This document shows positions 31,799 to 40,785 of a stretch of 64,000 bases of DNA, piece after piece. Position numbers and translations under genes: made by a program. Source of the DNA: Bdellovibrionales bacterium CG10_big_fil_rev_8_21_14_0_10_45_34. Its GTDB lineage: Bacteria; Bdellovibrionota; Bdellovibrionia; Bdellovibrionales; 1-14-0-10-45-34. Where the stretch lies: NCBI GenBank assembly GCA_002778785.1, contig PEZS01000016.1, positions 53,092 to 117,091 on the forward strand. The letters run 5' to 3'. The notes under the pieces were generated by a model, which saw only the letters and a program-made list of their open reading frames with translations, was not told the DNA's origin and ran no database searches. Numbering within the stretch: position 1 is the first letter of the stretch; each line of letters opens with the position of its first letter.

Positions 31799-32206
31799 TT
31801 AGTTAGCAGACTCTTTCTTTTCGAAAGCTTCTTTTGAAGAAGCGGCTTCGTTAGAGCTAACAAGCTCTCCAGAAATACGCGCTTTTTTACCTTCAAGATT
31901 TCTAATGTAATAGAGTTTTGCACGGCGAACTTGCCCACGAGCAATTAACTGAATGTTATCGATGGCAGGGCTTGAAAATGGAAATGTTCTTTCAACTCCG
32001 ACGCCGCTAGAAATTTTTCTAACAGTGAAGGCGCGAGTTATTCCTGACCCTTGAACCTTGATCACTAAGCCTTTGTACTTTTGGATTCTTTCTTTTTCGC
32101 CCTCTTTTACGCGAACTGAAACCTCAACCGTGTCACCTGGAGTGAGAGCGATTTTGTGGATCTTGGGCGTGCGGCCTACGGTAATTCGGCGGATGAGATC
32201 TTGCAT
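31799..32206 (-). CDS. rplS: 50S ribosomal protein L19
   Basis: 135 residues. [49 protein letters not shown] and [18 protein letters not shown] are standard L19. It lies at the 30S-50S interface. Directly after trmD (57-base gap), the normal order. The extra Glu/Ser tail after residue 113 is lineage-specific. Confidence 0.97.
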
Positions 32207-32263
32207 AAGAGGCTCCTAAAACTTTTACGAAGAGAAAGGGATACCCCATTCTCGCAGTAAAGG

Positions 32264-33193
32264 TCAAACTTTTCCCTGCCAACCCATCGACTTTTTTACG
32301 TTTTCTGGCAGCTCCCTCGCCCAGACGAGCGCTTCTTCGATTTCCTCCGTTAACGCTTTAGATGTACGGACTGGCCTACGAAAAGCCATTGGTGAGAGCG
32401 GCGTGCCATCATCCGTGCTGCTCTCTACTCGTGCCGCGCCCTCCATACCGCTCTCTAGGGTCGGTTGGCCGCCACGAGATGGGCCTTTACCCATCAACAA
32501 GTCCCTTCGAAAAAGCCACGTTTCAACTAGACTTGCGCGTCTTCGAAACTTCGCAATTTCGCCGTGATGCCCCCCAGTCAGAACCGAGGGCACCTCAAGA
32601 TCGCGCCAAACCTCTGGCCGCGTAAACGTGGGTCCTTCAAGTAAACCGCCCACCCCTTCAGAAAAACTGTCTTGAGCTGCCGACTCGCCGTGGCCTAAAA
32701 ACCCTGGCACAAAACGACTCACAGCTTCAATAAACACCAGCGCTGCCGTTTCACCCCCGTTCAGAACGTAGTCGCCAACTGAGATTTCTCTCGCTCCTGC
32801 GGCCACAATAAGTCGTTTGTCAAAGCCCGCGTAACGTCCGCAGAGAAGTCCTACAGCAGGATGGGTAGGCTTCGAAGCATTCGCCAGCAGACTTTGTGCA
32901 AAAGTGTGAGCCATTTTTGCCGTCAGTCGCTCACCTTGAGGAGAAAAGCAGATAAGTTCGTCAACAGGATTTTGCTCTATGGCGCTTGCCCATGGCTCCG
33001 CCATGAAGCACATGCCATCGCCACCCCCGAAAGGTCGGTCATCAACAGTTTTGTGTTTGCTCTGAGAATAGTCGCGAGGATTCACTAAGTGAAATTTCAG
33101 CAATCCTTTTTCGACGGCTTTTGATGTTAGCCCAGCGCTCAAAGGAGATTGAAAAAATTCCGGGAAAATAGAATAGATGTTAAACTGAATCAC
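32264..33193 (-). CDS. trmD: tRNA (guanine37-N1)-methyltransferase
   Basis: 309 residues. YSIFPEFFQSPLSAGL, the trefoil-knot SAM site LLCGRYAGFDKR and ISVGDYVLNGGETAAL, and VPSVLTGGHHGEI are TrmD motifs. It methylates G37 to prevent frameshifting. The family is about 240-250 residues; here a 50-residue Ser/Gly/Pro-rich insert (about 235-285) interrupts the C-terminal domain. Normally follows rimM directly; here 4.7 kb intervene. Confidence 0.95.
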   Translation of the reverse strand: MIQFNIYSIFPEFFQSPLSAGLTSKAVEKGLLKFHLVNPRDYSQSKHKTVDDRPFGGGDGMCFMAEPWASAIEQNPVDELICFSPQGERLTAKMAHTFAQSLLANASKPTHPAVGLLCGRYAGFDKRLIVAAGAREISVGDYVLNGGETAALVFIEAVSRFVPGFLGHGESAAQDSFSEGVGGLLEGPTFTRPEVWRDLEVPSVLTGGHHGEIAKFRRRASLVETWLFRRDLLMGKGPSRGGQPTLESGMEGAARVESSTDDGTPLSPMAFRRPVRTSKALTEEIEEALVWARELPENVKKSMGWQGKV

Positions 33194-33410
33194 TCTCTGA
33201 AGTATCTAAATGTTTAACCACTCTAAAGCAAACGAGTTCTCCGCTTTATGTAAAGCTTATTTTGTTGGGCACCCGCGCTTTTGCTCGCTATCCTACAACT
33301 TCGATCACCGGCAAAAACGCCTTTAAGAGTAGTTGCAGAACTATGTGTCACGGAAACTGGTACACAAGAAACCATGCTATAAAACAATCCAATAGACAGC
33401 CAAGGGGACA

Positions 33411-33436
33411 AGCGGCGAAAGCTTAGGTTCGCCGCT
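33411..33436. terminator. Hairpin downstream of the trypsin gene
   Basis: AGCGGCGAA (33411-33419) pairs perfectly with TTCGCCGCT (33428-33436), eight-base loop. It lies just past the protease stop and before trmD's promoter side. There is no T-run on either strand, so it may be a weak terminator or a processing hairpin. Confidence 0.45.
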
Positions 33437-33450
33437 GAGGTAAAATCTGC

Positions 33451-34254
33451 TTAGTTCAGTTGCTGCGAACTTGTAACAGTAGCAATCCACTCGGAGACCG
33501 CGTTCACCTTAGAGTAGACGCCGTATTTGTCTGCACGTGCGCAACCGGCACCCCAACTCACAACACCTACGAGAATTGGTGCTCCATCGCCTCCTTTGAC
33601 CATAAGTGGGCCGCCGGAATCTCCCTGGCAAGAATCCTTTCCGCCTTCTTTGTAGCCGGCGCAAATCATTCTATCAGAAACACCACCGTTGTAAGAAGTC
33701 GGAAGATTACAATCGGCTTGTGATACGAGCGGAACATCTACTTTTTGTAGCGTATTTGATAAACTTCCCCACTCACGAGTGTAACCCCATCCTGCAACGG
33801 TAGATAAAATTTCAGAACTAGCATCGGTGTGAGAAGGAATGTTGATCTCTGTAGAGTTCAAACCGATACCGGCGAAAGTGGTTGGCTGAGCAAGATAAAG
33901 AAGTGCAAAATCAAAGTCTTTCGAACCGTAGTTTGGATGAAGAAATGACTTTTCAATTTGAAGTCTTTCTTCCCCTTCGCTTTCATCGAGGTTATGTAAT
34001 CCGGCAACCACTTCGATGACCCTTCCCGCCCGAATACAATGTGCTGCCGTTAATACCCATCGCTGCGCAATAATAGAACCGGCACAAAAATGTTTTTGAT
34101 TAGTTTGCAAAGAGACGAGCGATGGAAACTCCCCTTTGTTCGCATCAACTCCCCCGACTATTTTTGTTTTCTCTGCGAGCGGCTTCGCACTCACTTGCAA
34201 ACACTGCACGCTAGTAAAAACTAAAGCGCAGCAAAAAGTAATCTTACCCCACAT
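33451..34254 (-). CDS. Secreted trypsin-like serine protease (family S1)
   Basis: 267 residues. Signal peptide (1-23), short propeptide ending K31-IVGG (trypsin-type activation site), catalytic H72 (TAAHC), D115 (DFALL), S213 (GDSGGP), and D207 at the base of the S1 pocket, which predicts cleavage after Arg/Lys. Paired cysteines fit disulfides. Complete and apparently functional. Chymotrypsin-fold proteases are common in predatory bacteria. GGGGGGA precedes the ATG. It lies alone inside the rimM-trmD interruption, divergent from the TIGR02147 gene. Confidence 0.93.
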   Translation of the reverse strand: MWGKITFCCALVFTSVQCLQVSAKPLAEKTKIVGGVDANKGEFPSLVSLQTNQKHFCAGSIIAQRWVLTAAHCIRAGRVIEVVAGLHNLDESEGEERLQIEKSFLHPNYGSKDFDFALLYLAQPTTFAGIGLNSTEINIPSHTDASSEILSTVAGWGYTREWGSLSNTLQKVDVPLVSQADCNLPTSYNGGVSDRMICAGYKEGGKDSCQGDSGGPLMVKGGDGAPILVGVVSWGAGCARADKYGVYSKVNAVSEWIATVTSSQQLN

Positions 34255-34711
34255 AAGATTGATCCCCCCGTTTTTTGTGTAACTTCGTTGTTACAGTCTT
34301 CCAGTTTTCAAGGGAGGTTACTCTTTGCCTACCAACAACTTTTCTTTGATCGGGAATCTAGGCTAACCTCTTGGCTTTTAGCTTGTCGTTCATCGAGTCT
34401 TGCTAGACGAAATTACGGGTGATCACTCCAAGGCACGCGGGAGAGAAGTTTATAAAAAACCCTAGATGTAACTTGGGGGTAAAGTGCTGACGAGGCATTG
34501 CCGGAAGAAAAACTGCTCAGAATTCTCGCGATATCGGAGTGCGGTCAACTGTGTAACTACTTTGCAAGAGCGCCAAAAAAGAGCCTAGACGTGAACAGTG
34601 GTGTTCACAGGTTCGTAGGCTATCTAGTTGTAACAACAGCGGCTTTTGCCTTCGTCTGCCGTTCACAACCTGCCGATAAATTGGACCAAGGTTTGCAATT
34701 CTGTGAACAAC
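34255..34711. other. 457-base divergent intergenic region, protease / TIGR02147 gene
   Basis: It must hold promoters for both genes. Short ORFs across it have no ribosome site or recognisable product. I see no clear -35/-10 pair or long repeat. Confidence 0.5.
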
Positions 34712-35614
34712 ATGAAACAAGAAAGCAATTTAAAACCTCGTATTTATGATTTCACAGACTTCAGGGTGTATCTCAAAGCGATTTACGAACACAATAAGTC
34801 TGAACACAATTTTTCCTATGCAGCATTTGCGGAGCGTGCGGGGTTAAAGGCACGTAGCTTCCTGCGAACTGTCATAACGGGTAAGCGTAATTTAACCCCT
34901 GACGCAATTTCGAAGTTTATCGTAGGGCTTAGTCTTGAGTTCAATGAGGCAGAAGCCTTCAAGGCGCTTGTCCATTACAACCAAGCAAGTGATTTTAAAG
35001 CTCGGCAGCACTATTGGGAGACTTTTCTTAAACTTAGGCCAAACTCAGAAAGACGTCACAGAGTTAAAGATGAGTATTTGTATCTTGCACGCATGGCTTA
35101 CCCGATTCTCCTGATTCTCCTCAGACAACCCCATACGAACAAAGCAAAGAGTGCACTCGCCTCGATGACTGGATTAAAAATGTCAGAGGTCGAAGATGGC
35201 TTACAAACTCTTACAGAGCTGGGCGCGATATCGGTTTCTCATGATGGCCAAATCACCGTGAATTCAGATGGGTTTGTGACCACCAATGATACTCCAAGCA
35301 TCGCAAGGCAGACCTTTCACACAAATATGCTCGACAAAGCCAAAGAGTGTTTGAATCTTGATCCTTCTGAAAGAGAATTTCAGTCGATGATGATACCTCT
35401 TACTAAAGAAGAATTCCTTTACTTGAAGGAGCGCATTCGTGCTCTCGTCAGCGAAGTTGATGAAAAATTTGGCGGCAGACGACCAAAATCTGAACGAGCC
35501 TATGCTCTAAACATTAATTTAATACCAATTACACCTGAATTTATCCGCAGTGAGCAAAAGGCTGCGAGTCAGAAGCCGGGTGATGTTAGCAAAAACCCGG
35601 AGGTTTTACTATGA
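34712..35614 (+). CDS. TIGR02147 family protein (putative regulator)
   Basis: 300 residues from the ATG at 34712; a TTG at 34646 would add 22 residues without support. The N-terminus YDFTDFRVYLKAIYE, then FSYAAFAERAGLKARSFLRTVITGKRNLTP (helix-turn-helix-like) and the later WETFLKLR and LKERIRALVSEVDEK segments are typical of TIGR02147, a family largely confined to Bdellovibrionota and Fibrobacteres. Function is not established; a DNA-binding regulatory role is inferred. Its stop overlaps the start of the secreted-protein gene (ATGA), so the two form an operon. Confidence 0.85.
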   Translation: MKQESNLKPRIYDFTDFRVYLKAIYEHNKSEHNFSYAAFAERAGLKARSFLRTVITGKRNLTPDAISKFIVGLSLEFNEAEAFKALVHYNQASDFKARQHYWETFLKLRPNSERRHRVKDEYLYLARMAYPILLILLRQPHTNKAKSALASMTGLKMSEVEDGLQTLTELGAISVSHDGQITVNSDGFVTTNDTPSIARQTFHTNMLDKAKECLNLDPSEREFQSMMIPLTKEEFLYLKERIRALVSEVDEKFGGRRPKSERAYALNINLIPITPEFIRSEQKAASQKPGDVSKNPEVLL

Positions 35615-37686
35615 GAACGTTAATTGTCTTTTCATTGTTGTTACATGCATTGCCGCTTCAAGCAGCTCAAGAGAGATCCAGGTCAACTGGAGACGGTGTG
35701 GGCCACAGTCAAGGCGCAAGGAGCGCTTCACGCGCAGAAGGTGTCGGGAACATTGCCAGGGGCGAAGGCGTCGGTAACAAAGAAGGCGTCGGCAATATCG
35801 CCCGCGGTGAAGGCGTTAGGAATATATTTGGTGAAGGAGTAGGGAATATCGTGCGCGAACCTCTTTTCTTGGCCGAAAATAAAGAGCCCCTAAGCAACAA
35901 ACTTTATGTTTCATTTCCAGAGTCGTACACCTTTGCAATGCGAACCGAGAATCAAGCGACACTAACAAACAACAATTCATTGAAGTCTGATAAAAAGAAA
36001 TCAAAGTTGCATTTTCAAAGGCTTCAATCCGGCCCCTACGAAGGAATTACCAGCTTACTCGAACTGGAAGCCACGTTGAATCAGAAACAACAAAAATGGC
36101 GTCCAGTGCAGTTTCTAAAAGCCGCAGGATTCGTCCACTATTCAAAAAGATCAAAAGACCACTTCATTGCCGAGTATATGCTTTTGACCGATCAGAATAA
36201 CGTCATACGAGTTAACATAGACTCACAAAGTAGTTACAGCGGCGTCTCCTCTGTAGAGAATATCTTGAGAACCTTAACAGGTGATACTACGCCACCTTTA
36301 GTTAAACGGATGACTCTACACGGAAAATGGAACTACCGGGCAGGCGAAGAAGTAATACTAATATCGGAAATTATTGAGGACGAGTCAGGTCTCGCTAAGT
36401 TTAAGAATCTCGATGCCACATTTCTATCTGACGACAACACCAAATTCTTTAAATCGGAGGTTAAATTTCGCTCGCTAGCGGGCCCAATGGATATGAACCC
36501 AAAGGAGAAATATCTCTACGCTATAGAACTCAACATTCCTAAAAATGCAATGACCGGCAAATACTACTTAAATAGCATTTTTGTTAGCGACAACGACTTT
36601 AATCATCAAGTCATTAAACTTAAAGCAAACAAAGATGTTTATGCCTCAAGCCAGTTTCGTAAAGGTCGATATATCCCGCAACCGATAGGTAAAATTCGTA
36701 GAATTGAACTTAATGTAATGGGTGAATTTCAGTCGGATATGTACTCAGCTAAACTTCGAGGTATTTCCTTTAAGAATGATAGGGTTAAGCCGGGCAACAA
36801 AGTAGAAGCCGTTGTGGATTTGGCCCCCGCTCCAAACAAAAATCTGCCGTGGGACCAACAGACTCGACTTATTATTGGCGACATAAGACCCGTTAGCGAA
36901 TCGCGGGAATCTCGCACTGCGGTGATTAGTTATAGCGATGAAAACGCATCCACTTCCCTCGGTGACATTGTTCTTGACGGCGCTGTTGATTTAGCCGCAA
37001 AGCCTGGTCGGAGTTTATTGAGCGAAGTAGAGCTTTATAATAAGGATGGCAGCAAAGTAAAATACACCGCTGATTTAAAATCAAATAAATACGTGGAGCA
37101 CGTAGTACAAACTCTTGCCGGCTATGTTAAAGATCGTGATGGGATAACGACCACGACGGAGATTCCAGTCGCCCATTTAGAAATTGAACCCGATGTTCGG
37201 AATGACAAAGCCGGTCCTGTTATCTCGGCCATCAAGATTGTCGGCGCATTTCGTCTATCAAATTCGAGTTTGGAGTTTCTCGTTCACATAAGCGACAGCT
37301 CCAGCGGTGTTTCACCAAACGCCTCTGTTAGCGCGATGCTAAGGTCGGATCTTGTAAACGGAAACGTATCGGCGGCCCGAGTAAGTAACGAAATTATAAC
37401 TTATTCTAACGTAACAGCTAACTCGGCTGCTATGTCGACGAAGAAAATTCCGGCTGATCGAAATTGGTTTAAACTTCTACCCTCTTTAAACCCCATCGGA
37501 AGAAACTACCCTACGGGAGTTTTTTATACTCTCACAGAACTAGAGGTTAAAGATCGAGCCGGCAACGAAACCTACCTTATTGCAGACAAAACTGACGGTA
37601 CCTATCACGTTCAAGAAAAGCGAAGCTCTAAAGACTTAGGAAGCACAGGTATTCCGATAGTACGAGTGAAGCTTCAGCGCGATTAG
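35611..37686 (+). CDS. Large secreted protein with N-terminal GEGVGN repeats, unknown function
   Basis: 691 residues. Signal peptide (1-19, LIVFSLLLHALPLQAA), then five to six imperfect GEGVGNIxR units (about 30-85), then a long beta-rich region with segments resembling bacterial Ig-like or cadherin-like domains (DDTTPPLV-type start near 225; DKAGPVISAIKI near 535, each followed by DxSSG turns). No enzyme motif. GGAGG precedes the ATG, which overlaps the TIGR02147 stop. Surface or periplasmic structural/adhesive role is only a guess. Confidence 0.65.
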   Translation: MRTLIVFSLLLHALPLQAAQERSRSTGDGVGHSQGARSASRAEGVGNIARGEGVGNKEGVGNIARGEGVRNIFGEGVGNIVREPLFLAENKEPLSNKLYVSFPESYTFAMRTENQATLTNNNSLKSDKKKSKLHFQRLQSGPYEGITSLLELEATLNQKQQKWRPVQFLKAAGFVHYSKRSKDHFIAEYMLLTDQNNVIRVNIDSQSSYSGVSSVENILRTLTGDTTPPLVKRMTLHGKWNYRAGEEVILISEIIEDESGLAKFKNLDATFLSDDNTKFFKSEVKFRSLAGPMDMNPKEKYLYAIELNIPKNAMTGKYYLNSIFVSDNDFNHQVIKLKANKDVYASSQFRKGRYIPQPIGKIRRIELNVMGEFQSDMYSAKLRGISFKNDRVKPGNKVEAVVDLAPAPNKNLPWDQQTRLIIGDIRPVSESRESRTAVISYSDENASTSLGDIVLDGAVDLAAKPGRSLLSEVELYNKDGSKVKYTADLKSNKYVEHVVQTLAGYVKDRDGITTTTEIPVAHLEIEPDVRNDKAGPVISAIKIVGAFRLSNSSLEFLVHISDSSSGVSPNASVSAMLRSDLVNGNVSAARVSNEIITYSNVTANSAAMSTKKIPADRNWFKLLPSLNPIGRNYPTGVFYTLTELEVKDRAGNETYLIADKTDGTYHVQEKRSSKDLGSTGIPIVRVKLQRD
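35690..35860 (+). repeat. GAAGGCGT(C/T)GG-type repeats coding GEGVGN units
   Basis: The units GEGVGNIAR, GEGVGNK, EGVGNIAR, GEGVRNIFG and GEGVGNIVR follow each other. At DNA level the core GGCGAAGGCGT recurs with substitutions, mostly at third positions, which suggests an old, selected repeat rather than a fresh expansion. Confidence 0.75.
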
Positions 37687-37758
37687 CCAAAAGTATGTCT
37701 ATGAGTACGCTTTAAAAGGAATCTGCTACAAACCTTAGCCTAAAGTTTTCTTCCTTCA

Positions 37759-37786
37759 TTGGCGGCGATAAAGAAAACGCCGCCAA
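37759..37786. terminator. GC-rich hairpin between the secreted-protein gene and rimM
   Basis: TTGGCGGCG (37759-37767) and CGCCGCCAA (37778-37786) form a perfect 9-bp stem with a 10-base A-rich loop, between convergent stops at 37686 and 37905. No T-run follows on either side. Confidence 0.45.
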
Positions 37787-37904
37787 CCTTGGACTTCTCT
37801 TGAAATGTTTCATCGTCGGTACTGCGCTCCACAAGGTGGAAAATCGCCCGCATCGCCATCGAAAGTGAGTTGAAACCTTTATGGGAAGAGTGACCCTAAA
37901 ACCC

Positions 37905-38537
37905 TTAGCTCAAGCGGGATTTACCCGGAGCAAACAGCTCTGCGCTTAACAAGCCTTCCGGAAGATCAAAGTAAATCTTCTTTTGCTTCCAATCGATGTG
38001 CTTGATGAACTCCTCTATAAGAGGAATCTCATAGCGCAGGTCCGCCTCACGCGACTGTACAACTGCTAGATCTTGGACAGTATTAGACGAGAACGAAATT
38101 ATTTTTCCGATAAACTTCGATTCCTCCGAGCCTGATAGAGCGTACGCTTCAAAGCCCTCAAGTTCGCTCAAGTAGATATTCTCGCCGGGCATCGAAATTA
38201 AAAGGCCCTCCGGAATTGCCACAAGTGCCCCTCGAAGTTTTTCTGCTGGAGTTCTGTGATCAACGCCATCAACCTTTACGATGATGCCGATCTTATGAGA
38301 TTTGGCGCGAGTAACGTTATATTCTGTCTCTTGTTCAGTATCTTGAGAGGCGGAAGAGCTTGAGGCGCCATCATGGGTTTTTGTTATAATGACCAGCTTT
38401 TCTAATTCATCGACCCAATCTGCTTTTTGCGCAAAGAGCACAACGAAAAGCTCACCCTTGAGCCCGTGAGCATCACGTATTTTACCGACAACTCGATAAC
38501 CTTTGATTTGATTTGTCTGCTTCTGATTTTGATCCAA
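37905..38537 (-). CDS. rimM: Ribosome maturation factor RimM
   Basis: 210 residues. GYRVVGKIRDAHGLKGELFVVLF, the VDGVDHRTPAEKLRGALVAIP segment and a PRC-barrel with YLSELEGFEAY and EIPLIEEFIKHIDWKQKKIYFDLPEGLL identify it. It assists 30S head assembly and binds S19. A Ser/Gln/Glu-rich loop (about 55-75) makes it longer than the usual 170 residues. Confidence 0.93.
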   Translation of the reverse strand: MDQNQKQTNQIKGYRVVGKIRDAHGLKGELFVVLFAQKADWVDELEKLVIITKTHDGASSSSASQDTEQETEYNVTRAKSHKIGIIVKVDGVDHRTPAEKLRGALVAIPEGLLISMPGENIYLSELEGFEAYALSGSEESKFIGKIISFSSNTVQDLAVVQSREADLRYEIPLIEEFIKHIDWKQKKIYFDLPEGLLSAELFAPGKSRLS

Positions 38538-38681
38538 AATTGTTCCTTTTCCTTAACCACGCGGATACGATTCCAGCGAATATAGAACAAAATCGAGACG
38601 AATAACTCAAAAACGATGGGGATATAGAAAAAATTCCGTAAGGGGATCTAGGAATCAAATGACAGAAAAACTCTCTTACAA

Positions 38682-38704
38682 GGCGCGCCCAAGCGGGGGG
38701 CGCC
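38682..38704. other. Strong GC hairpin between khpA and rimM
   Basis: GGCGCGCCC and GGGGGGCGCC can pair across about four bases just after the khpA stop. No T-run follows on the coding strand, so it is more likely an RNA-stability or processing element in the rpsP operon than a full terminator. It sits in an unusually long 177-base khpA-rimM gap. Confidence 0.5.
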
Positions 38705-38714
38705 ACAGAAAAAA

Positions 38715-38960
38715 CTACTCGACGATTTCGAGGACACTTCTTTTTTGAAGTTTAGTGCTTGCAGCATTTAAGATTGTTCTCATTGAACGAGCTGTGCGGC
38801 CTTGCTTACCAATGACTTTTCCAAGATCTTCCTTGGCTACTTTGAGCTCTACCACTGTGGTTTGCTCACCGACGACTTCGTTCACTTCCACCTGCTCGGG
38901 CTGATCCACTAATGATTTTGCCATGAATTCAACGAGATCTCGTAAGCTACTGTGGTCCAT
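38715..38960 (-). CDS. khpA: KH-domain RNA-binding protein KhpA
   Basis: 81 residues, a single KH domain with the [15 protein letters not shown] GxxG loop. [19 protein letters not shown] is the family N-terminus. Located between rpsP and rimM, its usual place. It probably acts as a global RNA chaperone with KhpB. Confidence 0.92.
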
Positions 38961-39038
38961 TTTATCGCTCCTTTAATACAACTTCAGAGATGGACTCTCT
39001 AATTACTTTCTATTATGCCCAGCCAATTTGGCCGGTGG

Positions 39039-39293
39039 CTAGGCTTGCGTGGTCTGGCCAGCCTTTTTGACGAGGGAGCGAACAGTGTCGCTAGGTTGAG
39101 CCCCTTTAGATATCCAGTCGTTGACGCGATCAAGCTTCATAACTAGTTCTTTTTCTTGGCCTTTTGGGTTTGGAATAAACTGCCCAACAACCTCTAAATA
39201 ACGGCCATCACGCCATCGACGAGAATCTGCCACCGTAATACGGTACTTAGGTCTATGTGTTGAGCCCCAGCGAGAAAGACGAATCACTACCAT
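39039..39293 (-). CDS. rpsP: 30S ribosomal protein S16
   Basis: 84 residues. MVVIRLSRWGSTHRPKYRITVADSRRWRDGRYLEVVG is S16 with small changes (WGST for the more common G-K/R-K), and the C-terminus SKGAQPSDTVRSLVKKAG is standard. Part of ffh-rpsP-khpA-rimM. Confidence 0.97.
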   Translation of the reverse strand: MVVIRLSRWGSTHRPKYRITVADSRRWRDGRYLEVVGQFIPNPKGQEKELVMKLDRVNDWISKGAQPSDTVRSLVKKAGQTTQA

Positions 39294-39366
39294 GGAAATA
39301 AACTCCTGAAATGTTTTAGCCCGTTACAAGCCTCTCGGTTTACGATAAGTCACAAAATTCTGCAAG

Positions 39367-40785
39367 CTAAAAGGGAAATCCCCTGCCGCCGCCCCGCCTA
39401 CCGCCTCGTCCACCTATCATAGGCCCGCCGCCGCCGCCACCGCCGCCAAATGGGGGCATACCGCCACCGCCCATCATGCCCTTAAGGCCGCCCTTCATCA
39501 ATTGAGACATCATTTTTTGAGAGGCTTCAAACTGCTTGATGAATTTGTTGACCTCACTCACCTGCGTGCCGCTTCCTTTGGCTATTCGTAGCCGACGCGA
39601 ACCATTGAGAATTTTGTGATTTTGACGCTCTTTTAGGGTCATCGAGCTAATGATAGCCTCGATTCTTCGCATTTCAGCATCGGGTGGCCCCATCGATTGG
39701 GCCTGTTTCATGATTCCGCCCATGCCAGGAATCAGCTTCATTATGCCTTCAAGTCCGCCCATTTTCTTCATCGATTTCATTTGCTCTAAAAAGTCCTCAA
39801 CCGTGAACTCGTTTCGAGCCAATCGCTTTGCGCTTTCTTCGGCCTTTGTTTGATCGATGACATCTTGAGCCTTTTCAACAAGGGTAACTATGTCACCCAT
39901 ATCTAATATTCGAGAGGCCAATCGATCCGGGTGGAATACCTCAAAAGCATCTGACTTTTCACCAAGCCCAAGAAACTTGATAGGCACGCCAGTTGTTTGG
40001 CGGATACTGAGTGCCGCCCCGCCTCGCGCGTCGCCATCAATCTTAGTAAGAACCAAGCCCGTTAAGCCAACTGCTTGATCAAAACCTTGAGCGACATCTA
40101 CGGACTGCTGCCCGAGCATTGCGTCTGCCACAAGAAGGACTTCTTGTGTGCCTGTCAAAGTTTTTAGATCAGCAATTTCCTTCATAAGCGAAGCGTCGAT
40201 CTGCGATCTACCCGCAGTATCGAGAATCAAAACCTCCACCATCTCTTTTTGAGCCCAGCTCTTTGCCGCCTCGTAGATTTGATGCAATGTTTGCCCCATC
40301 TCTGTCGGAAACACTGGCAGGTCGAGATTTTTCCCCAACACTTTTAGTTGCTCAATCGCGGCGGGTCGATAAAGGTCCATCGGCACTAAACCTGGCTTCT
40401 TTTTGAGCTTTTTTCGTATCCACAAAGCCAGCTTTGCGGAGCTTGTTGTTTTACCGCTTCCTTGAAGCCCTACCATCATAATTGAAGGAGGGTTGCCTTT
40501 AATCTGAATTTCAACGTTTTCTGTGCCCAACACCTGCACAAGTTCATCATGCACAATCTTTACAAACTGCTCAGCAGGGCTGACGGACTTAAGAACTTCT
40601 TGGCCGAGGGCCTTTTGTTTTACGGCCTCAACGAAAGATTTTACGACTTTAAAGTGTACGTCTGCTTCTAGAAGAGCCATGCGAATGTCTTTTATGGCAT
40701 CTTCGATATTGGATTCGCTAATTTTTGTCTGTCCGCGAATTTTCTTAAAGCTAGAAAGAACTTTCTCTGAAAGTTGATCAAACAT
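39367..40785 (-). CDS. ffh: Signal recognition particle protein Ffh
   Basis: 472 residues. N domain, then G domain with GLQGSGKTT (G1), DTAGR (G3), TKIDGDARGG (G4) and GLGEKSDAFEVF, followed by the Met-rich M domain (QMKSMKKMGG, GGIMKQAQSM). It binds 4.5S RNA and targets inner-membrane proteins to FtsY. The C-terminus ends in a 40-residue Gly/Met/Arg tail (GGGG runs, RGGRRGGGRG), longer than in most bacteria. Confidence 0.97.
   Translation of the reverse strand: MFDQLSEKVLSSFKKIRGQTKISESNIEDAIKDIRMALLEADVHFKVVKSFVEAVKQKALGQEVLKSVSPAEQFVKIVHDELVQVLGTENVEIQIKGNPPSIMMVGLQGSGKTTSSAKLALWIRKKLKKKPGLVPMDLYRPAAIEQLKVLGKNLDLPVFPTEMGQTLHQIYEAAKSWAQKEMVEVLILDTAGRSQIDASLMKEIADLKTLTGTQEVLLVADAMLGQQSVDVAQGFDQAVGLTGLVLTKIDGDARGGAALSIRQTTGVPIKFLGLGEKSDAFEVFHPDRLASRILDMGDIVTLVEKAQDVIDQTKAEESAKRLARNEFTVEDFLEQMKSMKKMGGLEGIMKLIPGMGGIMKQAQSMGPPDAEMRRIEAIISSMTLKERQNHKILNGSRRLRIAKGSGTQVSEVNKFIKQFEASQKMMSQLMKGGLKGMMGGGGMPPFGGGGGGGGPMIGGRGGRRGGGRGFPF

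Follow-up and report, generated by a model that had tools for sequence, protein, structure and literature searches.

A TIGR02147 regulator coupled to a tagged exported protein: a putative autoregulated two-gene module in Bdellovibrionota and other phyla

The regulator gene and its coupled partner

Why should the gene of a predicted DNA-binding protein overlap that of an exported protein with a repetitive N-terminus, and is this arrangement peculiar to the one locus? The question is raised by two neighbouring genes on the forward strand of the window, the whole stretch of 64,000 nucleotides of DNA that was analysed. The first gene (34712-35614) runs from an ATG at 34712 to a TGA at 35612-35614 and encodes a protein of 300 amino acids that is a clear member of the TIGR02147/DUF4423 (PF14394) family. 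The NCBIfam profile TIGR02147 (Fsuc_second) matches it over positions 3-270 of 272 with 137.1 bits (cut-off 50), and PF14394 over positions 12-164 of 165 with 88.2 bits (gathering score 30). Structure prediction for both products had been proposed in a first-pass annotation of this DNA and for the regulator gave a good AlphaFold2 model (pLDDT 88.6, pTM 0.80), in which an XRE-type helix-turn-helix (HTH) domain (residues ~14-109) is followed by a winged helix (~112-190) and by C-terminal helices at residues 196-213, 232-253 and 275-286. On comparison with the PDB, residues 14-93 of the model resemble DdrO (6jq1, Z 7.4) and residues 114-190 resemble SrnR (7p6f, Z 9.0), with the HigA antitoxin also among the fold matches. 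These matches are of middling strength and concern common DNA-binding folds only; a whole-chain match was not found in the PDB, from which nothing firm follows on the novelty of the fold, and sequence searches of the PDB returned nothing useful. The model supports a regulator predicted to combine an XRE-type HTH with an ArsR/MarR-type winged helix, a statement on fold only from which DNA binding is inferred.

The second gene (35611-37686, forward strand) encodes 691 amino acids, which the reading frame, Pfam and two distant homologues resolve into a signal peptide, a tag repeat and a mature part without a confident domain. Its ATG is located at 35611 and the overlap with the regulator stop codon is therefore an ATGA (35611-35614), which by its sequence points to translational coupling; a strong Shine-Dalgarno sequence, GGAGG (35599-35603, forward strand), lies 7 nt 5' of the ATG. 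The first-pass annotation had thus rightly recognised, and correctly placed, an ATGA overlap and a strong GGAGG joining the two genes. The N-terminus of the partner is signal-peptide-like (MRTLIVFSLLLHALPLQAAQ), a home-made hydropathy test assigning about residues 1-19 (35611-35667, forward strand; MRTLIVFSLLLHALPLQAA) to the signal peptide, and it has no lipobox. The earlier description of a 691-residue exported protein with N-terminal repeats holds. Its Ig-like segments stand on weaker ground, as Pfam offers only matches below the gathering score (DUF7743, E=0.0038; DUF7035, E=0.049), and the structure prediction proposed for this protein came to nothing, since the single-sequence fold was unusable (pLDDT 32.6) and was discarded. 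No homologue of the partner was detected among 39 relatives. When its mature part was searched without the repeat, only two relatives were found in 368 genomes (L255 and L256; E 5e-9 and 1e-7, 21 and 25% identity), and both are encoded directly 3' of a TIGR02147 gene of their own.

As to the genomic surroundings, the usual rpsP-rimM-trmD-rplS order is split in the window (31799-40785). Between rimM (37905-38537, reverse strand) and trmD (32264-33193, reverse strand) lie the forward-strand regulator-partner pair and a gene for a trypsin-like secreted protease (33451-34254, reverse strand), and the base composition of this insert is much like that of its surroundings.

Exported neighbours of TIGR02147 genes and their shared tag

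The first-pass annotation had suggested that the pair could be a regulator with its dedicated surface protein, an idea that was to fall if TIGR02147 genes, in a survey of gene neighbourhoods, did not tend to lie in front of secreted beta-rich proteins. In the window's own genome, 10 of 14 TIGR02147 genes, the one in the window included, are followed on the same strand by a gene with a signal peptide, nine of them overlapping it or separated from it by at most 30 nt. The exceptions are one regulator with its partner upstream (L019), two divergent from theirs (L025 and L026) and one with only a convergent one (L018). The family was found in all 39 same-order genomes searched. Among 74 loci surveyed, 48 have a same-strand downstream neighbour within 30 nt, and this neighbour carries a signal peptide in 46 cases as compared to 42 of the 124 close pairs in 464 kb that served as background (p about 8e-15). 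Signal peptides were called by the same simple hydropathy rule of our own making in both groups; since many survey loci are related, the p-values overstate independence. In an independent set of named genomes the neighbour had a signal peptide in 25 of 27 cases, and the commonest junction across the family is a 4-nt overlap (23 of 55 same-strand pairs). The survey that could have refuted the idea thus favoured it, and the pairing with a dedicated exported protein is supported, the surface location being inferred. Two parts of the earlier proposal need to be amended: the tendency is a strong one for secreted proteins and not for beta-rich ones alone, and the family is not narrowly lineage-restricted, as its members come from Bdellovibrionota, Myxococcota, Fibrobacterota and one Desulfobacteraceae MAG. 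Partners range from 114 to 694 amino acids in length. Those of the lipoprotein group contain, according to Pfam, beta-propeller, LamG with DUF2341, META, Ig-like or DUF4382 domains; in 20 other partners scanned, Pfam recognised no domain.

Some arrangements met in the survey deserve mention in their own right. With 45 TIGR02147 matches, one same-order genome of 2.9 Mb has about twice as many as the genome that ranks second. In the window's own genome, locus L020 (C6:236000-255000) comprises three regulator-partner units in about 12 kb, two of them separated by the gene of a secreted trypsin-like protein, and the two divergent regulators L025 and L026 form a deep side branch and face similar secreted proteins, which have GGGGK-x-ICRD behind the signal peptide in common.

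But what do partners with unrelated mature parts have in common? Right behind the signal peptide or lipobox, on lipoproteins and Sec-secreted proteins alike, they carry a short tag that reads GT(D/E)(T/V)GNP, or GNGGD and close forms, and that is present in 31 of 46 partners versus 7 of 120 background proteins with signal peptides. The pattern behind this count was tuned on the same data, and searches starting from the tag were therefore made, which were confined to Bdellovibrionota. In 368 genomes of this phylum GT[DE]xGNP has 19 matches, 11 of which immediately follow a lipobox or signal peptide; 10 of these 11, and none of the other matches, are located directly 3' of a TIGR02147 frame. For L253, a tagged lipoprotein, no regulator gene lies within 1.5 kb. 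GNGGD was searched in 7 and then in 140 genomes, the loci examined giving the count: all 10 proteins in which GNGGD immediately follows the signal peptide are encoded no more than 1.5 kb from a TIGR02147 gene of the same orientation. Eight of them are encoded directly 3' of the regulator gene, one (L265) about 700 nt farther downstream and one (L267) directly 5' of it. Where GNGGD occurs elsewhere in a protein, a TIGR02147 neighbour was seen only once, for a signal-peptide protein with the motif at residue 205 (L228). Together, 20 of the 21 tagged exported proteins found in this way in Bdellovibrionota have an adjoining TIGR02147 gene. The tag codons vary freely at synonymous sites and selection thus acts on the protein.

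That the tag might act at the level of DNA or RNA was also considered, and was rejected in view of the synonymous variation.

The repeat of the window partner (residues 27-79; 35689-35847, forward strand) is, as judged from the repeat count, the comparison of codons and the single-copy homologues, a multiplied form of the tag that partners have in common. It comprises five counted copies of [GAE](E/D)GV(G/R)(N/H); on shuffling, even 2 copies were reached in only 2 of 100,000 trials. Its codons vary at synonymous sites, indicating a repeat at the protein level, and Tandem Repeats Finder reported no tandem repeat at the DNA level. The two homologues of the mature domain carry a single copy each after the signal peptide, GGVGVGNGS (L255) and GGVSVGNGA (L256). 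The GEGVGN repeats of the first-pass annotation are thus real; they are, however, not peculiar to this protein, being an expansion of the tag that the partners share. Partners of the two closest regulators (L142, 52%, and L066, 42% identity) show no detectable similarity to the window partner, their genes again overlapping the regulator gene and their products bearing the short motifs RVNNGDPG and ENTGNG, respectively. Taken together with the homologues of the mature domain, this leads us to conclude that regulators and mature domains enter new combinations, the tag being kept.

The type of tag and the class of partner follow the regulator clade. When 140 regulators were placed in a tree, partners with GNGGD were found mainly in one clade and those with GTxxGNP mainly in another, which includes the window, and the partner labels require 38 changes as compared to 82.8 when shuffled, none of 200 shuffles being as low. 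Many deep branches of this tree are weak and several long branches unsure; as to the searches, an alignment of 26 regulators (A1) proved too diverse as a query and a second one (A2) was used instead. A third clade of long regulators, mostly from Bdellovibrio (47 of the 140 rows), has almost no coupled downstream partner, its members mostly following the gene of a secreted protein that bears no clear tag.

Most of the long regulators without a downstream partner (L156-L217) lie about 60-240 nt 3' of a gene for a secreted, often Pro/Gly-rich protein. One sequence of the Bdellovibrio clade (L174, CALQIT020000056.1) is titled Streptomyces griseus and probably stems from a mislabelled or contaminated MAG.

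Repeats and a predicted promoter upstream of the regulator

The region preceding the regulator gene contains a candidate operator, the perfect inverted repeat GTGAACA-GTGG-TGTTCAC (34591-34608). This is the sole perfect copy in the genome, and GTGAACA-N4-TGTTCAC is found elsewhere in it only with two mismatches, in fewer copies than a reversed control pattern gives. A third half-site, GTTCACA (34661-34667), has a counterpart at nearly the same position (-54) in the closest relative L142, and a fourth, TGTGAACA (34702-34709), lies just 5' of the regulator ATG, the variant TGAGAACA being found at -12 in L142; the layout of four half-sites at nearly equal distances is thus common to both. The half-site of the window also occurs 74 nt 5' of the regulator at L256, in the form GTTCACA-AC-TGTGAAC. 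Across the family, inverted repeats with arms of at least 7 bp within 160 nt upstream precede 57 of the 140 regulators versus 15.8 expected from base-shuffled sequence, most of the surveyed regulators having no simple perfect repeat. Another palindrome, GTATTC-N4/5-GAATAC, lies upstream of 12 of the 140 regulators, from Bdellovibrionota, the window's own genome included, and Myxococcota, and is absent from 464 kb of background.

In the window, a sigma-54-like -24/-12 promoter, TGGACCAAGGTTTGCA (34682-34697, forward strand), scores 13.1 of 16.1, its activity being predicted only. At the same place L142 has TGGCACAAGCGTTGCT with a score of 15.4, so that both meet the test applied (GG at -24 and GC at -12, consensus TGGCAC-N5-TTGCA), and RpoN is encoded in the window's genome. 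Transcription is predicted to start at about 34708, and the regulator message would therefore be nearly leaderless.

As a feature of the family the sigma-54 promoter was rejected, there being no enrichment outside the window and L142.

The proposed module and its relation to known systems

What, then, accounts for these findings? Computation established that the genes are paired and coupled and that the partners carry a tag which, in Bdellovibrionota, is linked almost exclusively to the regulator; it also yielded the match with regulator clades, the operator-like repeats and the predicted fold. The best explanation, which we regard as probable in the absence of any data on binding, expression or localisation, is a two-gene module of an autoregulated regulator and its dedicated exported partner. 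The window pair would be one unit of a large family of such self-contained modules. Its TIGR02147 protein would act as a cytoplasmic one-component transcription regulator with two domains of DNA-binding type. By binding to inverted repeats at its own promoter, which differ between paralogues, it would set the expression of itself and of the partner; DNA binding and autoregulation by this protein are inferred. The second gene, coupled through the ATGA and the strong ribosome site, would provide the dedicated exported protein, Sec-secreted or a lipoprotein, the mature domain of which appears to be interchangeable and is probably that of a binding or surface protein. Coupled partners typically start with the short tag, be it of the GT(D/E)(T/V)GNP or the GNGGD type or, as in the window, a repeated GEGVGN. 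Being near-exclusive to regulator neighbours, the tag is suggested to serve the module. The regulator may recognise the unexported precursor via the tag, in which case expression would answer to the export of its own product. That the tag is a ligand of the regulator is an inference of weaker standing, which we offer only tentatively. The fuller version, in which the module senses its own export as a self-contained export-monitoring switch, present in at least three phyla with many paralogues that have different operators and accept almost any surface domain, is more speculative still.

The main rival, which is not excluded and retains a real if minor chance of being correct, is that the tag, passed on as part of the cassette, serves the envelope as a signal for sorting, anchoring or processing. 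According to this explanation the regulator controls expression only, and mature domains have been swapped within one inherited cassette. It draws support from the position of the tag at the mature start, which is also the site of the Bacteroidetes lipoprotein export signal (PMC5080379), and from the presence of the tag on lipoproteins and Sec-secreted proteins alike. Yet a sorting signal would be expected on many exported proteins that have no regulator, whereas all but one of the 21 found by their tag have one, and it would not lead one to expect that tag type tracks the regulator clade. Alternatively, TIGR02147 proteins might be ordinary local autorepressors of unrelated envelope proteins and the tag merely structural, for instance a flexible linker. 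Stretches rich in Gly, Asn and Asp are indeed common as linkers and the operator-like repeats suit simple autorepression, but we consider this unlikely, as a linker is not expected to be common to unrelated mature domains, to be near-exclusive to TIGR02147 neighbours and to switch type with the clade.

Peptide signalling of the RRNPP kind offers another precedent for a cytoplasmic HTH regulator whose gene adjoins that of an exported product; its receptors (PlcR, PrgX, ComR) contain a TPR array and go with a small pro-peptide. The tag region would accordingly be cut off outside the cell, re-imported and sensed by the regulator. The TIGR02147 pair is alike in joining an HTH protein to an exported product whose mature N-terminus contains a short conserved segment, present in the window in several tandem copies. 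TPR receptor and pro-peptide are not seen here, however: Pfam detects no TPR family in the regulator at E<=1, the model has a winged helix and only three longer C-terminal helices in its place, the partners are full proteins of 114-694 amino acids, and neither a protease nor an importer was seen to accompany the pairs. We therefore think this explanation improbable. Least credible, and barely worth entertaining, is a toxin-antitoxin or immunity pair of a toxic exported protein and an HTH antitoxin, for although small overlapping operons with an XRE-type first gene and the HigA fold match recall such systems, the partners are exported, often large and of many unrelated domain types, Pfam finds no toxin family in the window partner or the other partners scanned, and similar XRE-DUF397 pairs, when tested, did not act as toxin-antitoxin systems (PMC10364602).

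The autoregulated module with its exported partner, which we prefer over these explanations, has consequences beyond this locus. Through its tag, a large number of exported proteins without a known function in predatory and polymer-degrading bacteria become accessible to study, and its operators open the TIGR02147 regulators to direct tests. Should the tag be a ligand of the regulator, it would represent a new way of tying the expression of surface proteins to export; should it serve in sorting instead, these phyla would seem to have a sorting route that is so far unknown.

In the papers searched, TIGR02147 or DUF4423 is named as a paralogue family only, without a function, partner, tag or operator, and searches on the family and on the tags returned only a table entry for Bd3700, most subscription papers being missed. 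Pairing and tag suggest an undescribed kind of self-regulating surface-protein unit, no description of which was met in these papers. Its parts nevertheless have relatives. The two N-terminal domain folds of the regulator are like those of DdrO/HigA-type XRE repressors and of ArsR/MarR-type winged helices (Z 7-9), a likeness at the level of domains only, the combination of both with the C-terminal helices being unmatched as a whole. The nearest known N-terminal tag is the surface-targeting export signal of Bacteroidetes lipoproteins, K-(D/E)2 or Q-A-(D/E)2, likewise a short motif near the mature N-terminus (PMC5080379). Neither GT(D/E)(T/V)GNP nor GNGGD meets this criterion, the tag of TIGR02147 partners thus differing in sequence, and the abstract of that paper mentions no paired regulator. 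As an arrangement, the module comes closest to the XRE-DUF397 pairs of Streptomyces (WhiJ/BldB-type), of which there are many paralogous pairs per genome and in which the regulator WhiJ9 binds to repeats adjoining the gene that encodes it (PMC10364602, PMC10294661). In both, an XRE-type regulator is followed by a dedicated partner gene. The TIGR02147 regulator differs from that of XRE-DUF397 in its added winged helix and belongs to another family, and no match to DUF397 was obtained with Pfam in the window partner or in 30 other partners. The partner in XRE-DUF397 pairs is a small protein of one family, whereas that of TIGR02147 regulators is exported, may be of any fold and is marked by a shared N-terminal tag.
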